A stretch of 64,000 bases of DNA from Bordetella genomosp. 4. GTDB lineage: Bacteria > Pseudomonadota > Gammaproteobacteria > Burkholderiales > Burkholderiaceae_B. The stretch lies in NCBI RefSeq assembly GCF_002261185.1, contig NZ_NEVQ01000023.1, positions 62,001-126,000 on the forward strand, read 5' to 3'. Positions 42,444-47,762 of this stretch are shown one piece after another. The position numbers and the translations under genes were made by a program. Each line of letters starts with the position of its first letter. The first letter of the stretch is position 1. The notes under the pieces were generated by a model. The model was not told where the DNA came from, did not search any database, and was given only the letters and a program-made list of their open reading frames with translations.

Positions 42444-43124
42444 ATGAACACTCAAAATACCGCACAGAATAACGCAGTCGCGCTACGCGCGCGATTACGG
42501 CAAGCCCGTAATGACATTCCCGAGTCGCAACGCAGCCGCGGCGGCCTGCTCATGCGCGGCCGGCTGTTCACCTGGCTCAATGCGGTGCGGGAACAATCGG
42601 CCAGGCAAGGAACAAAGGTGCCTGCAACCGTGGCGGCCTTCTGGCCTCTGGCGGGCGAGCCTGATCTACGTCCATTGCTGCAACAATGGGCAGACGCCGG
42701 CATCGCCATCGCCCTGCCGGCAATCCGCGACACGGACGCCCCGCTGGAGTTTCGTGCCTGGACACCTGGCGATACGCTGGAGTGCGGCCCTTTTAATGTC
42801 CAGGAACCGTCAGCCGATCGGCCGGCGCTGCGCCCCGACGTCATCCTGGTCCCCACGCTCGGCTATACCGATCAGGCCGACCGCCTGGGCTATGGCGGCG
42901 GTTATTACGACCGGACGCTGGCCGACTTGCGGCAAGCCGGCCACGAGTTCACCGCTATCGGTATTGCCTGGAACGAGGGCCTGCTGGATGAGGACTACCA
43001 GCCGGCCCCACACGACGAACGTCTGGACGCGGTTCTGACGCCCGATGGATGGCTGCCCGAGCCGCCACTGCTGGGACCAGGTGCACCCTCCGGGGGAGTC
43101 GTGGGATCGTTTGTGCTGCGTTGA
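42444..43124 (+). CDS. 5-formyltetrahydrofolate cyclo-ligase
   Basis: Converts 5-formyl-THF to 5,10-methenyl-THF with ATP. 226 residues. N-terminal LRARLRQARNDIPESQRSRG, and the signature PTLGYTDQADRLGYGGGYYDRTLADL containing the GYGGGYYDR loop. ATG 42444 is preferred over 42411. In many bacteria this gene neighbours 6S RNA; no 6S candidate is apparent here. Its 3-prime end borders the regulatory region of the Anbu operon. Confidence 0.93.
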   Translation: MNTQNTAQNNAVALRARLRQARNDIPESQRSRGGLLMRGRLFTWLNAVREQSARQGTKVPATVAAFWPLAGEPDLRPLLQQWADAGIAIALPAIRDTDAPLEFRAWTPGDTLECGPFNVQEPSADRPALRPDVILVPTLGYTDQADRLGYGGGYYDRTLADLRQAGHEFTAIGIAWNEGLLDEDYQPAPHDERLDAVLTPDGWLPEPPLLGPGAPSGGVVGSFVLR

Positions 43125-43127
43125 ATT

Positions 43128-43150
43128 GGTGCATGCACCACAACGGTGCA
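43128..43150 (+). promoter_or_regulatory. NtrC-type binding site (overlapping half-sites)
   Basis: TGCACC (43134-43139), five bases, GGTGCA (43145-43150) matches the enterobacterial NtrC consensus TGCACC-N5-GGTGCA exactly. A further GGTGCA (43128-43133) abuts it, forming the palindrome GGTGCATGCACC. The site lies about 100 bases upstream of the sigma-54 promoter, the usual distance for an NtrC enhancer. Confidence 0.75.
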
Positions 43151-43245
43151 TTAATTACCCTAGGGGCAACCCTCTCACTCCTCGCGCGCCTCCTCTGCTA
43201 CAAGGGAAATGCACAGGCGCGGGCCGTATCAGGCCCGGTCAGATC

Positions 43246-43261
43246 TGGCACAAGGGTTGCT
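43246..43261 (+). promoter_or_regulatory. Sigma-54 (-24/-12) promoter of the Anbu operon
   Basis: TGGCAC, AAGGG, TTGCT is a full match to the RpoN consensus TGGCAC-N5-TTGCW, with GG and GC at correct spacing. Predicted start of transcription is near 43272, leaving a leader of about 87 bases before ATG 43359. With the NtrC-type dyad upstream this implies nitrogen-limited expression. Confidence 0.8.
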
Positions 43262-43358
43262 TATCAGTTTGATATGGCGCACGCACCCAGCGCCCCCTGT
43301 CGGGCCGCAGGCTCCATCCGGATCACGCGGCAGGCCCGCGCAGGATACGGAGGAGCCC

Positions 43359-44792
43359 ATGCTGCATGCACAATCCGCCCCGTCGGCGGCCTACGACGAA
43401 ATGGTCGACGCCCAGGGCCTGGTACGCCCCCACTACGCGGGGTTTTCACAGTGGCTGACTCAGGAATCCACCGACGCCATGGCGGCGCGGCAGATCGAGG
43501 CCGATCTCAGTTTCCGCCGCGTCGGCATCACGTTTTCTGTGGCCGGTGACGAGGCCGGTACCGAACGGCTGATCCCTTTCGATCTCATTCCCCGCATCAT
43601 TCCCGCCGACGAATGGGCCCATCTGTCGGCCGGCCTGACACAACGAGTACGCGCTCTCAACATGTTCATCCGCGATATCTATCACGGTCATGACATTGTG
43701 CGCGCCGGGATCGTGCCGGCCGAGCAGGTCTTTCTGAATGCGCAGTACCGCCCGGAAATGCAGGACGTAGATGTCGCCGAAGACATCTATTGCCACATTG
43801 CCGGCGTTGATATCGTGCGCGCCGGCGCTGGCGAGTTCTACGTTCTGGAAGACAATCTGCGTGTTCCTTCCGGCGTGTCATACATGCTGGAAAACCGCAA
43901 AATGTCGATGCGGCTGATGCCCGAGGCGTTCAGCAGCCTCAAGGTCAAGCCCGTCGCGCATTATCCCGATCTGCTCCTGGACAACCTGCGCGAGGTCGCG
44001 CCGCGCAGCAACGACGCACCCACCGTCGTCGTGTTGACGCCGGGGATGTACAACTCGGCTTATTTTGAACACGCCTTCCTCGCACAGCAAATGGGCGTGG
44101 AACTGGTCGAGGGTCAGGATCTCTTCGTAGACCAGAACACGGTGTACATGCGTACTACGCGAGGGCCGCGCCGTGTAGATGTCATCTACCGTCGAGTGGA
44201 CGATGATTTTCTGGACCCCCTGTCATTTCGTGCGGACTCGGCATTGGGCGTGCCGGGACTGCTGTCGGTCTACCGCGCCGGGCGCGTCACGTTGGCCAAT
44301 GCCATCGGCACAGGCATTGCCGATGACAAATCCACGTACCAGTACGTGCCCGACATGATCCGTTTTTATCTCCAGGAAGAACCCATTCTGTCCAACGTCC
44401 CGACGTGGCGCTGTTCGCGGCCCGATGAGCTGTCGCATGTCCTGGCCCACATGCACGAGCTGGTCGTAAAGGAAGTGCACGGCGCAGGCGGCTACGGCAT
44501 GCTGGTCGGCCCCACCTCGACACGCGCTCAAGTAGAGGCCTTTAAAGAACGTGTCCGCAGCCATCCCAGCAACTACATCGCTCAGCCCACCTTGGCGCTG
44601 TCGACGATTCCGACTTATGTGCAGTCTGGGGTCGCTCCCCGCCATGTCGATCTGCGTCCCTATGTACTGTGCGGCAAAGATATCCGCACCGTGCCGGGAG
44701 GCCTGTGCCGCGTCGCGTTGACTGAAGGCTCGCTGGTCGTCAACAGCAGCCAAGGCGGCGGCACCAAAGACACCTGGGTACTGGGAGAATGA
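43359..44792 (+). CDS. Circularly permuted ATP-grasp protein
   Basis: 477 residues of the CP-ATP-grasp family (formerly DUF404/DUF407). Landmarks are IYCHIAGVDIVRAGAGEFYVLEDNLRVPSGVSYMLENR, VVLTPGMYNSAYFEHAFLAQQMGVELVEG and VVKEVHGAGGYGMLVGP. The family is predicted to join amino acids or peptides through acyl-phosphate chemistry. GGAGG lies just before ATG 43359. It overlaps the alpha-E gene by four bases. First gene of the operon with alpha-E, a transglutaminase-like protease and Anbu. Confidence 0.93.
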   Translation: MLHAQSAPSAAYDEMVDAQGLVRPHYAGFSQWLTQESTDAMAARQIEADLSFRRVGITFSVAGDEAGTERLIPFDLIPRIIPADEWAHLSAGLTQRVRALNMFIRDIYHGHDIVRAGIVPAEQVFLNAQYRPEMQDVDVAEDIYCHIAGVDIVRAGAGEFYVLEDNLRVPSGVSYMLENRKMSMRLMPEAFSSLKVKPVAHYPDLLLDNLREVAPRSNDAPTVVVLTPGMYNSAYFEHAFLAQQMGVELVEGQDLFVDQNTVYMRTTRGPRRVDVIYRRVDDDFLDPLSFRADSALGVPGLLSVYRAGRVTLANAIGTGIADDKSTYQYVPDMIRFYLQEEPILSNVPTWRCSRPDELSHVLAHMHELVVKEVHGAGGYGMLVGPTSTRAQVEAFKERVRSHPSNYIAQPTLALSTIPTYVQSGVAPRHVDLRPYVLCGKDIRTVPGGLCRVALTEGSLVVNSSQGGGTKDTWVLGE

Positions 44793-45736
44793 CAATGCTG
44801 AGCCGTACTGCCGACAATTTGTTCTGGATGTGCCGCTATATCGAACGGGCCGAGAACACGGCCCGCATGCTGGACGTCAATCTGCAGATGTCGCTCATGC
44901 CACAGGACGCTCAGGCCCGCGACAGTCTATGGCGTGCCGTCTTGCGGATTTCCGAACTGCAACGTGACTACGATGCCCGCTATCCCGCGGTCACGCCGCT
45001 GGACGTGCTGCATTACCTCGTGCGCGAGCCGACGAATCAATCTTCTATCTATTCCTGCCTGCGTGCAGCCCGCGAAAATGCGCGCGCCGTGCGTGGCAGC
45101 CTGACAACCGAGGTCTGGGAAACGTACAACACGACGTGGCTGGAACTGCAGAAACACTTGCAGACCCATTTGCCTGAACGCAATCCCGGTGAATTTTTTG
45201 AATGGGTGAAATTCCGCGCTCATCTGGTGCGTGGTGTCACCATCGGCACGATGCTGGATGACGAAGCGCTGCATTTCCTGCGATTGGGGATGCATCTGGA
45301 GAGAGCCGACAACACCGCGCGGCTGTTGGATGTGAAGTTTCACGAAGAGCAAGATGATCTCGCTGCACGCAGCAGCGAGTTCTATCGTTGGGCATCGCTG
45401 CTGAGTTCGGTATCGGGCCTGGAGATCTATCGCAAGGTCTACCGCGATGTCATCACGCCTGATCGCGTTGCGGAGTTGTTGATCCTGCGTCCCGATATGC
45501 CGCGCTCGCTATTGGCCTCGGTACAAGCGTTGACGGAAGATCTGGCGCGCGTCGCCAACCAACGCTCCGCCGAAACCGAGCGTCGTGCGGGCCTGTTGTA
45601 TGCGGAACTGCGCTACGGGCGTATCGAAGACATTTTGCATAGCAGCCTGCACCGCTATCTGGAACGTTTTTTAGAGCGCATCAACGACTTGGGCAACCGT
45701 ATCAGCCAAGACTTCCTCGTGCCGCTGGCGGCATAG
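44789..45736 (+). CDS. Alpha-E domain protein
   Basis: 315 residues, all-helical, beginning MTMLSRTADNLFWMCRYIERAENTARMLDVNL, the signature start of alpha-E proteins. WYxER-type helices recur (HFLRLGMHLERADNTARLLDVKF). It always accompanies CP-ATP-grasp proteins and is thought to act with them, possibly as a substrate or ligase partner; its biochemistry is not settled. The start ATG overlaps the upstream TGA. Confidence 0.93.
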   Translation: MTMLSRTADNLFWMCRYIERAENTARMLDVNLQMSLMPQDAQARDSLWRAVLRISELQRDYDARYPAVTPLDVLHYLVREPTNQSSIYSCLRAARENARAVRGSLTTEVWETYNTTWLELQKHLQTHLPERNPGEFFEWVKFRAHLVRGVTIGTMLDDEALHFLRLGMHLERADNTARLLDVKFHEEQDDLAARSSEFYRWASLLSSVSGLEIYRKVYRDVITPDRVAELLILRPDMPRSLLASVQALTEDLARVANQRSAETERRAGLLYAELRYGRIEDILHSSLHRYLERFLERINDLGNRISQDFLVPLAA

Positions 45737-45753
45737 CATCACCCGGAGCCCTC

Positions 45754-46563
45754 ATGAAACATCTCATTCGACATGTCACTCAATATCGCTACACGGCACC
45801 GGTCAGCTATAGCATCCAGACATTGCGCCTGACGCCACGCATGGACGACCATCAGCGCGCATTGCGCTGGCGCATCGACGCCCCCGGCTCTCTGGAACAA
45901 CAGGTCGACGCCTACGGCAATATCACGCACATGCTGACCTTGCCCAGCGCTCATGACAGTATTGATCTGTGCGTCACCGGCCAAGTGGAAATCGACCCAT
46001 TGCGTGATGGACGGCTGCATCCCGAGGACAACCGCCTGCCTGTGCATGCCTTCTGCGTACCCACTTCGTTGACGCAAAGCGATGACACCATCCGGGATTT
46101 TGTCCACACGACGCTGCCTCATGGGCTGCGTACGCCTGATGACGCTCTGGCACTGGCCAGCGCCATATGCGACCGTGTGGCGTACGAACCGGGAACGACG
46201 GACGTCACCACGGCGGCCAATCAGGTGCTGGCCCTGGGCCACGGCGTCTGCCAAGACCACGCCCATCTGTTTCTCGCCTGCGTACGCGGCATAGGCGTGC
46301 CAGCGCGTTATGTCAGCGGGTACCTTTACACCGAAGCGGAGCATGCTGCCAGCCATGCATGGGCCGATGTCTGGCTGGACGATATAGGCTGGACCAGTGT
46401 GGACATCACTAATCGCCAGTTCGCCTCGGATTGCCATTGCCGGCTGGCCATTGCGCGGGACTACGATTCAGCCTCGCCGGTGCGAGGTGTCCGGCATGGT
46501 GGTGGAGAGGAATCAATGACCGTGTCGGTACAGGTCCAGGCGGCTCGCCAACAGGCCCAGTAG
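45754..46563 (+). CDS. Transglutaminase-like cysteine protease
   Basis: 269 residues. An N-terminal beta domain (residues 1-100) as in bacterial transglutaminase-like proteins, then the catalytic core with C166 (LGHGVCQDHAHLFLACVR), H201 (ASHAWADVW) and D217 (TSVDITN), a complete Cys-His-Asp triad. Probably a peptidase acting on the product of the ATP-grasp enzyme. It sits 17 bases after the alpha-E gene. Confidence 0.93.
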   Translation: MKHLIRHVTQYRYTAPVSYSIQTLRLTPRMDDHQRALRWRIDAPGSLEQQVDAYGNITHMLTLPSAHDSIDLCVTGQVEIDPLRDGRLHPEDNRLPVHAFCVPTSLTQSDDTIRDFVHTTLPHGLRTPDDALALASAICDRVAYEPGTTDVTTAANQVLALGHGVCQDHAHLFLACVRGIGVPARYVSGYLYTEAEHAASHAWADVWLDDIGWTSVDITNRQFASDCHCRLAIARDYDSASPVRGVRHGGGEESMTVSVQVQAARQQAQ

Positions 46564-46610
46564 GAGTGGCTACGCAGTACAATACGCTAGCTGTTATTCA
46601 CCGACTCACC

Positions 46611-47474
46611 ATGACCTACTGTGTTGCCGCCCGCCTGGATTCAGGCTTGGTTTTCCTCTCCGATTCACGCACTAATGCGGGCGTGGACCAAATCAGCGTT
46701 GCGCGTAAGCTCAACGTTTTCGAACAGCCGGGCGACCGTGTCATGGTGCTGCTCACGTCGGGCAATCTGGCCATCAGCCAAGCCGTTGTGAATCTGTTGG
46801 CTCAGCTCGATAGCGATAGCACGGATTCGCTATGGTCTGCACCCGATATGTACGAGGCAGCCCGTCGCGTTGGCGAAGCCGTTCGCCGGGTTCACGAACG
46901 TGATGCCGAGGCCTTGAGCGAGCATGGGGTCGATTTCAATATCAATTTGATTTTTGGCGGCCAGATTGGCGCCGAGCGCGGCCGGCTGTTTCAGGTGTAT
47001 TCCGCCGGCAATTTCATCGAGGCCAGCGCGGACTGTCCGTACGTGCAGATCGGTGAGGCCAAATACGGCAAGCCGATCCTGGACCGCGTCTTGCGTCCTG
47101 ATACGCCGCTGGACGAGGCGGCGAAATGCGCGCTGATCTCTATGGATTCGACCTTGAGATCAAACATCTCTGTCGGCTTGCCGCTGGATCTGCTGGTCTA
47201 TGAGGCGGATACGCTTCGTGTGACGCATTTCACGCATATCGACGAAGACAACGAATACTTTCGGATGATACGCAAGACCTGGGGGGAACGGCTGCGGCAG
47301 GTGTTCACCGAGATCGACGATCCGACTTGGACGGACGCGGGGGCCTCGGGGTCATTGGCAGCGGCTGGTCGGCTGCATCAGCCGCATCGGTTGACGCCGA
47401 ACGGGGTGACGCCGAATAGCCCGGCGCCGTTGCAGGTGGTCGCGCAGGATCCGGGGAAGTCGCAAGCTTCTTGA
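46611..47474 (+). CDS. Anbu: ancestral beta-type proteasome homologue
   Basis: 287 residues of the Anbu (BPH) family of Ntn hydrolases. The sequence begins MTYCVAARLDSGLVFLSDSR; Thr2 would become the N-terminal nucleophile after Met removal, with D18 and K33 at the positions of the proteasome D17 and K33. No propeptide is present, as in known Anbu proteins, which form helical or ring assemblies. A Pro/Gln-rich tail of about 45 residues extends beyond the usual length. ATG 46611 is correct because any upstream start would bury the nucleophile. Last gene of the operon. Confidence 0.94.
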   Translation: MTYCVAARLDSGLVFLSDSRTNAGVDQISVARKLNVFEQPGDRVMVLLTSGNLAISQAVVNLLAQLDSDSTDSLWSAPDMYEAARRVGEAVRRVHERDAEALSEHGVDFNINLIFGGQIGAERGRLFQVYSAGNFIEASADCPYVQIGEAKYGKPILDRVLRPDTPLDEAAKCALISMDSTLRSNISVGLPLDLLVYEADTLRVTHFTHIDEDNEYFRMIRKTWGERLRQVFTEIDDPTWTDAGASGSLAAAGRLHQPHRLTPNGVTPNSPAPLQVVAQDPGKSQAS

Positions 47475-47548: not shown

Positions 47549-47762
47549 GTCCCGGCTGGCGGCCCAGTCTGTGCTGGCCCTATCGCCCGGTCCGGCCGCC
47601 TGCGCGGCCAGACTCCCCTTCACCTGCCTTGCCAGGCGGGGCGGCTGGGCAAACTCGCTCCGCTGCGCTCCACTCAAACATGCCCAGCCGACTGCCCCCC
47701 GCCTGGCAAGGCAGGTTCGGCGGGCTCTACGGGCCAGCACAGACTGGGCCGCCAGCCGGGAC
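47549..47762. repeat. 214-bp nested palindromic element
   Basis: Outer arms of 32 bp (47549-47580 and 47731-47762) are perfectly complementary. Inner arms 47623-47651 and 47681-47715 also match, apart from a six-base insertion (ACTGCC) in the right arm. A 29-base centre contains CTCGCTCCGCTGCGCTCC, and a side hairpin GGCCGC/GCGGCC lies between the left arms. It fills most of the 371-bp gap between convergent anbu and metF. It codes for nothing recognisable and may be a miniature mobile element, an interspersed palindromic repeat or a strong bidirectional terminator. Confidence 0.9.

Follow-up and report, generated by a model that had tools for sequence, protein, structure and literature searches.

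The window analyzed here is a 64,000-nucleotide stretch of the Bordetella genomosp. 4 contig NZ_NEVQ01000023.1, and window coordinates below are positions within it. It contains a four-gene operon encoding a circularly permuted ATP-grasp ligase, an alpha-E protein, a transglutaminase-like protein and the proteasome relative Anbu, preceded by a sigma-54 promoter element and an NtrC-type dyad. These sites, their conservation in relatives, the presence of the regulators in the genome, a layout shared with glnA and glnK-amtB and published data from relatives together make it very probable that the operon is regulated by NtrC and sigma-54, with the binding and the ensuing transcription predicted from these lines of evidence. 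The best explanation of the whole, which we consider likely, is an NtrC/sigma-54-controlled Anbu operon with a ligase core and accessory hydrolases. Regulation of this kind has been described before; what is new is its occurrence in this operon and how widely it extends.

A predicted nitrogen-responsive promoter and its conservation

NtrC becomes active under nitrogen shortage and then switches on sigma-54 promoters. In searching for its sites we used the forms of the NtrC dyad and of the sigma-54 consensus that we take to be the standard ones; the latter can be compared with the -24/-12 consensus form printed in PMC5491218. The -24/-12 element of the operon (TGGCAC-N5-TTGCT, TGGCACAAGGGTTGCT), at 43246-43261 on the forward strand, matches the consensus, is conserved in relatives and is the only place in the window that fits TGGCAC-N5-TTGCW exactly; with at most one mismatch the pattern occurs there at 7 places against 3.4 expected. 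The dyad (TGCACC-N5-GGTGCA, TGCACCACAACGGTGCA), at 43134-43150, is perfect and is the only place in the window with at most one mismatch, 0.38 such places being expected and at least one being found in 34 of 100 shuffles. It lies upstream of the promoter element, with 104 bases, a usual spacing, between its centre and the -24 element. Both elements thus stand as the preliminary description of this DNA had given them, namely as full matches about 100 bases apart. A possible weaker second NtrC-type site (TGCGTTGAATTGGTGCA, 43117-43133), with 3 mismatches, directly adjoins the dyad and may be due to chance. A scan of the intergenic gap 43125-43358 for sigma-70-type promoters gave no promoter-like site.

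Three perfect NtrC dyads are present in the 5.5 Mb genome, and the copy at the Anbu operon is one of them. Genome-wide there are 20 dyads with at most one mismatch, versus 10 for a backward control, and 23 exact TGGCAY-N5-TTGCW sites, versus 6 for the same kind of control. Nine of these 23 sites have a dyad (at most two mismatches) within 260 bases upstream, among them those of glnA (a type I GlnA over the cut-off) and glnK-amtB (a P-II protein and an ammonium transporter), in which the layout of the sites is the same as at the Anbu operon, as well as that of an allophanate hydrolase gene, also over the cut-off. Further sites with a dyad accompany genes whose matches fall below the cut-offs, to a NarK-type transporter, an amino-acid/urea-type binding protein and a polyamine/phosphonate-type ATP-binding cassette ATPase. 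Because it shares dyad-plus-sigma-54 sites with these genes, the Anbu operon looks like a member of a coherent nitrogen regulon. The genome encodes NtrC (over the curated cut-off), so that a dyad upstream of the promoter coexists with its regulator, with glnA and glnK-amtB as controls, and the RpoN DNA-binding domain is found in two genes (G000:C21:226692-227159 and G000:C16:153462-153929). An exact sigma-54 site (C16:154963-154978) was also observed upstream of the second RpoN-domain gene, on the same strand.

The preliminary description had proposed a search for both motifs upstream of the corresponding operons in betaproteobacteria, and both proved to be conserved far above the level of shuffled sequences. 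A scan with the ATP-grasp protein gave at least 592 confirmed places; the best 80, all of them titled genome records, together with the window make up a set of 81 loci, of which the last 400 bases upstream (337 at one locus) were searched, with 50 shuffled sets and the reverse strand as controls. The strict sigma-54 pattern, TGGCACG-N4-TTGCW with at most two mismatches and with GG and GC fixed, had been set before the sequences were viewed. It was found in 50 of the 81 upstream regions (shuffles: mean 2.3, maximum 6; reverse strand: 1/81), and dyads with at most two mismatches in 44 (shuffles: mean 3.1, maximum 7). Dyad and sigma-54 pairs 30-200 bases apart are present in 27/81; the shuffled sets gave a mean of 0.04 and a maximum of 1, and one of 3924 blocks taken from other parts of these loci had such a pair. 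A relaxed sigma-54 pattern, picked after inspection of the sequences and scanned over 300 bases, recovers 67/81 loci with at most two mismatches, versus 1/81 on the reverse strand. TGGCACG-N4-TTGAT, or something close to it, is seen at several loci where the strict site is missing, TTGAT standing in place of TTGCT at -12 in L008, L010, L011, L013, L016, L017, L038 and L061, which span several genera; we take the loci with this form to be largely Oxalobacteraceae. When loci were counted by genus (55 with genus-bearing titles, 25 being dropped, for 33 genera), the strict sigma-54 site was found in 22/33 (reverse strand 1/33), dyads in 20/33, and sigma-54 (relaxed form included) together with a dyad in 19/33.

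In the window's family the gene is present in 41 of 121 genomes at the limit used, the window's own counted. Among the 29 best family loci besides the window (11 more were unfetched), read with Y at the fifth base of the sigma-54 pattern, a sigma-54 site with at most two mismatches precedes 26 (reverse strand 1), a dyad 20 and a spaced pair 17. The element thus combines the -24/-12 spacing of a sigma-54 promoter with conservation in orthologues, although it is absent or degraded in some relatives, including some of the same genus. It might be argued that a GC-rich genome would produce these motifs by chance, given that mismatch-tolerant sigma-54 matches are common in the window itself and that, of the four relatives from the same genus, two to three are without the sites. 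This is exceedingly improbable, however, as the conservation in place and strand is far above the shuffled, reverse-strand and block controls, and at the family level a chance origin is rejected by both the 81-locus set and the 29 family loci. Class-wide, a match was obtained in 120 of 370 genomes. Of the 89 upstream regions read, 19 contain a sigma-54 site with at most one mismatch (1 on the reverse strand), 36 contain one with at most two (6 on the reverse strand), and 16 contain a dyad with at most two mismatches. To judge from these sites, sigma-54 control recurs, yet it is patchy outside the betaproteobacteria. In Polynucleobacter and similar loci (L051, L052, L056, L062, L064, L068) the arrangement is different: a dyad resembling TGCAC-N7-GTGCA stands some 59 bases ahead of the gene, and there is no sigma-54 element.

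Operon genes and the placement of the switch

Upstream of the operon a 5-formyltetrahydrofolate cyclo-ligase gene ends at 43124, and the 234-base gap 43125-43358 separates it from the ATP-grasp ligase gene (43359-44792, forward strand, as are the next three). The product of the latter matches Pfam PF14403 (CP_ATPgrasp) over the whole domain (562.7 bits, profile positions 1-374 of 374) and PF04174, and has a solved relative, 3n6x. It is followed by the genes for the alpha-E protein (from the alternative starts 44789 or 44795 to 45736; PF04168), the transglutaminase-like protein (45754-46563; PF08379, Bact_transglu_N, and PF01841, Transglut_core) and Anbu (46611-47474; PF00227, Proteasome), in the gene order by which an Anbu operon is recognized. 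Pfam and the solved Anbu chains 5loy, 5nyw, 5nyj, 5nyf and 5lox (5loy_A with an E-value of 2.1e-99) agree with the four identities proposed at the outset. The active-site residues named there are likewise in place: the window's transglutaminase-like protein carries the Cys-His-Asp triad C166/H201/D217, and all 20 Anbu proteins that were aligned share T2, D18 and K33. In the alignment of 21 transglutaminase-like sequences the catalytic Cys is absent at the aligned column in three (L032:7505-8314, L035:7405-8199 and L057:7451-8233); in L032 a Cys stands one place earlier and the alignment may be at fault. The alpha-E protein (window 44795-45733) has an internal duplication, residues 1-119 aligning with 153-273 with a score of 86 (500 shuffles: mean 30, maximum 52). 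Its confidently predicted structure (mean predicted local distance difference test score, pLDDT, 90.6) is all-helical, and fold comparison gave only weak matches to helical bundles, the best of which, with the nitrate-sensing antiterminator NasR, is not strong enough to be of use. Downstream of the operon lies a repeat (47549-47762) with 32-base perfect inverted arms, to which 16 stretches of at least 150 bases elsewhere in the genome are similar (40 of 72 candidates scored).

Comparison of gene neighborhoods suggests that the switch does not follow Anbu. For this we used those of the 80 named betaproteobacterial loci for which 3 kb or more of downstream sequence was available, 75 in all, 48 with Anbu and 27 without. 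The relaxed sigma-54 pattern (at most one mismatch) precedes 34/48 loci with Anbu versus 20/27 without, and the strict -12 form 29/48 versus 20/27; a sigma-54 element particular to Anbu is thereby rejected in this set. Consequently, while the preliminary description was very probably right about control by nitrogen limitation, in view of the conserved sites, the glnA/glnK-amtB layout and the published relatives, its emphasis on Anbu is unsupported. In the class sample, where 32 of the 89 loci were dropped and the 57 followed by 3 kb or more were kept, sigma-54 sites with at most one mismatch precede 0/5 loci with a co-oriented downstream Anbu and 10/52 without, a comparison that is uninformative as Anbu lies elsewhere or divergently in many of them.

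The gene content itself varies among the 75 loci. Alpha-E is accompanied by both a transglutaminase-like match and Anbu in 39, by Anbu without such a match in 9, by the match without Anbu in 4 and by neither in 22, and at one locus none of the three is found within 4.2 kb; these counts take transglutaminase-like proteins of at least 35% identity, more distant ones being uncounted. The large neighbors in six Anbu-less loci were identified by Pfam as transglutaminase-DUF2126 proteins in L045, L047, L058, L061 and L072, and as an ATP-grasp/alpha-E fusion in L033. DUF2126 is present in the fetched stretch of 4/48 loci with Anbu versus 16/27 without (Fisher p 3e-6, uncorrected for shared ancestry). 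Next to the ATP-grasp/alpha-E pair both Anbu and transglutaminase-DUF2126 occur at 4 loci, Anbu only at 44, DUF2126 only at 16 and neither at 11 (examples include L045, L053, L067, L072 and L073), making Anbu and transglutaminase-DUF2126 near-alternative neighbors of the pair. Since Anbu, transglutaminase-like and DUF2126 genes vary, the ATP-grasp and alpha-E pair emerges as the constant core. The sigma-54 element is present in 32/44 Anbu-only, 2/4 both, 11/16 DUF2126-only and 9/11 neither loci, and dyads in 28/44, 1/4, 5/16 and 6/11, respectively. A large gene upstream was also noted at some loci, encoding a competence-type protein in L019, L045 and L074 and a histidine kinase in L060 (Pfam).

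It is conceivable, and we offer it as a tentative proposal, that the unit answering to nitrogen stress is the amide ligase made up of ATP-grasp and alpha-E, and not Anbu: in betaproteobacteria the NtrC/sigma-54 promoter would drive this core, with Anbu or the transglutaminase-amidoligase (DUF2126) as exchangeable modules acting on the same nitrogen-rich amide product. The thinner presence of the dyad in the DUF2126 set slightly lowers our confidence in this proposal and in the best explanation as a whole. Our literature search found no publication placing the nitrogen switch with the ATP-grasp/alpha-E core rather than with Anbu. Another idea, which expression data from Pseudomonas putida have already prompted in the literature (PMC5666114, PMC6376114), is that Anbu is a general protein-recycling protease in nitrogen shortage, served by the other operon genes. 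The invariance of its active-site residues is in line with this idea. It is nevertheless unlikely, considering that the sigma-54 element is equally frequent without Anbu, that Pfam gave no AAA+ unfoldase match among the four operon genes, such as would mark an unfoldase-coupled protease, and that PMC6376114 reports no peptidase activity detected for three purified Anbu proteins.

Proposed mechanism and contrary evidence

Under the best explanation, nitrogen shortage would lead to binding of phosphorylated NtrC to the dyad at 43134-43150, and the bound NtrC would activate the sigma-54 polymerase waiting at 43246-43261, upon which the four operon genes would be made together. ATP-grasp enzymes form amide bonds. 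The ATP-grasp and alpha-E pair would be the constant, controlled part, whose most likely reaction is the formation of an amide or peptide bond on an acceptor. The other two proteins, the transglutaminase-like one and Anbu, may have an accessory role as hydrolases or transferases by which such amides are trimmed or opened. Taken alone, this amide-forming and trimming chemistry is a rather doubtful, if possible, suggestion, and storage-peptide turnover as the role of the operon is a guess. For Anbu, a much-discussed relative of the proteasome, a switch that did belong to the ligase core would make amides produced by cells starved of nitrogen the place to look for the substrate, and would allow operons with Anbu to be compared directly with those with DUF2126. 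What is now a loosely posed question about this proteasome relative would become a search for a metabolite under growth conditions that are already defined.

Several observations weigh against NtrC/sigma-54 control of the operon, or against its generality. Of four relatives in the same genus that have the operon, only L200 keeps both sites; the sigma-54 element is degraded in L199, neither site is present in L198, and L201 has a 2-mismatch dyad and no sigma-54 site (a fifth same-genus genome gave no match). Neither site was found in Herbaspirillum (2/2 loci) or Glaciimonas (1/1), and the strict sigma-54 site is absent at three alphaproteobacterial plasmid loci (Sinorhizobium, Azospirillum and Paracoccus), that of Sinorhizobium having a sigma-54-like stretch that lacks the GG core. 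Dyads are also somewhat rarer at the betaproteobacterial loci without Anbu, 11/27 versus 29/48 (Fisher p 0.15). We presume flgE and urtA-D to be sigma-54 targets. In P. putida, PP_2686, PP_2687 and PP_2688 are up 12.6-, 11.0- and 14.7-fold in the wild type, and still up 14.2-, 16.0- and 19.6-fold in the rpoN mutant (PMC7801951); as flgE and urtA-D are up in all strains of this data set, the mutant data are hard to interpret. PP_2685, the Anbu gene, stands at 1.12 in the wild type in the same source and is hence uninduced in one of three data sets, and the 200-300 bp upstream of PP_2685 gave constitutive, nitrogen-unresponsive expression (PMC8050072).

Some of these facts would also suit a reading in which the sigma-54 element is real and the main activator in many relatives is another enhancer-binding protein, the dyad being accessory or recently gained. 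The class-wide excess of sigma-54 sites (19/89 versus 1 on the reverse strand) is accompanied by only 16 regions with dyads, loci of Steroidobacter, Peristeroidobacter, Rubrivivax and Roseateles have sigma-54 sites with no clear dyad, and the lower frequency of dyads without Anbu points the same way. We regard such an activator as quite unlikely given the dyads in 20/29 family loci, at NtrC-like distances in 17, and the reported NtrC dependence of the Burkholderia cenocepacia cluster (PMC5491218).

Comparison with known systems

The preliminary description had called the regulation of this gene set poorly defined, and it is in fact less open than that, as an assignment to NtrB/NtrC in P. putida and dependence on NtrC and sigma-54 in Burkholderia are in print (PMC7801951, PMC8050072, PMC5491218). 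A literature search for Anbu together with NtrC found no paper. The P. putida operon PP_2688-2685 has the same four gene types, is induced by nitrogen limitation and has been assigned to NtrB/NtrC (PMC7801951, PMC8050072, PMC3325844, PMC5666114). With nitrate the PP_2688 and PP_2685 transcripts are up by log2 3.99 and 4.44, and nitrogen depletion induces the PP_2688 promoter 3.7-fold (PMC8050072); PP2685-2687 are listed as up under nitrogen limitation (PMC3325844). The contents of the Anbu operon and the nitrogen-linked expression of P. putida Anbu are further mentioned, by citation, in PMC5666114 and PMC6376114, and in marine metagenomes the domains of the operon are associated with urea-metabolism domains (PMC3597751). 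The P. putida operon differs from the arrangement predicted here in that three of its genes retain induction in the rpoN mutant and its Anbu gene behaves inconsistently between data sets.

In B. cenocepacia H111 the cluster I35_5080-5083 comprises an ATP-grasp (DUF404/407) protein, an alpha-E (DUF403) protein and a transglutaminase under NtrC and sigma-54, as predicted for the window. When nitrogen is limiting, loss of ntrC changes I35_5080, 5081, 5082 and 5083 by log2 -8.2, -9.4, -9.4 and -6.0, and the cluster is named among the common sigma-54/NtrC targets (PMC5491218). Its fourth gene, however, encodes a large transglutaminase protein, and the portion of that paper available names no Anbu within the cluster itself, with the neighbors unexamined. 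The solved Anbu proteins (5loy, 5nyw, 5nyj, 5nyf and 5lox) are matched by the window protein over residues 1-241 and have the same operon neighbors in print, whereas the window Anbu is longer at the C-terminus (287 residues versus 240-251). Finally, the solved relative of the ATP-grasp protein, 3n6x, bears the depositor's name of a glutathionylspermidine synthetase-type ATP-grasp ligase, a likeness that by family suggests amide-forming chemistry.

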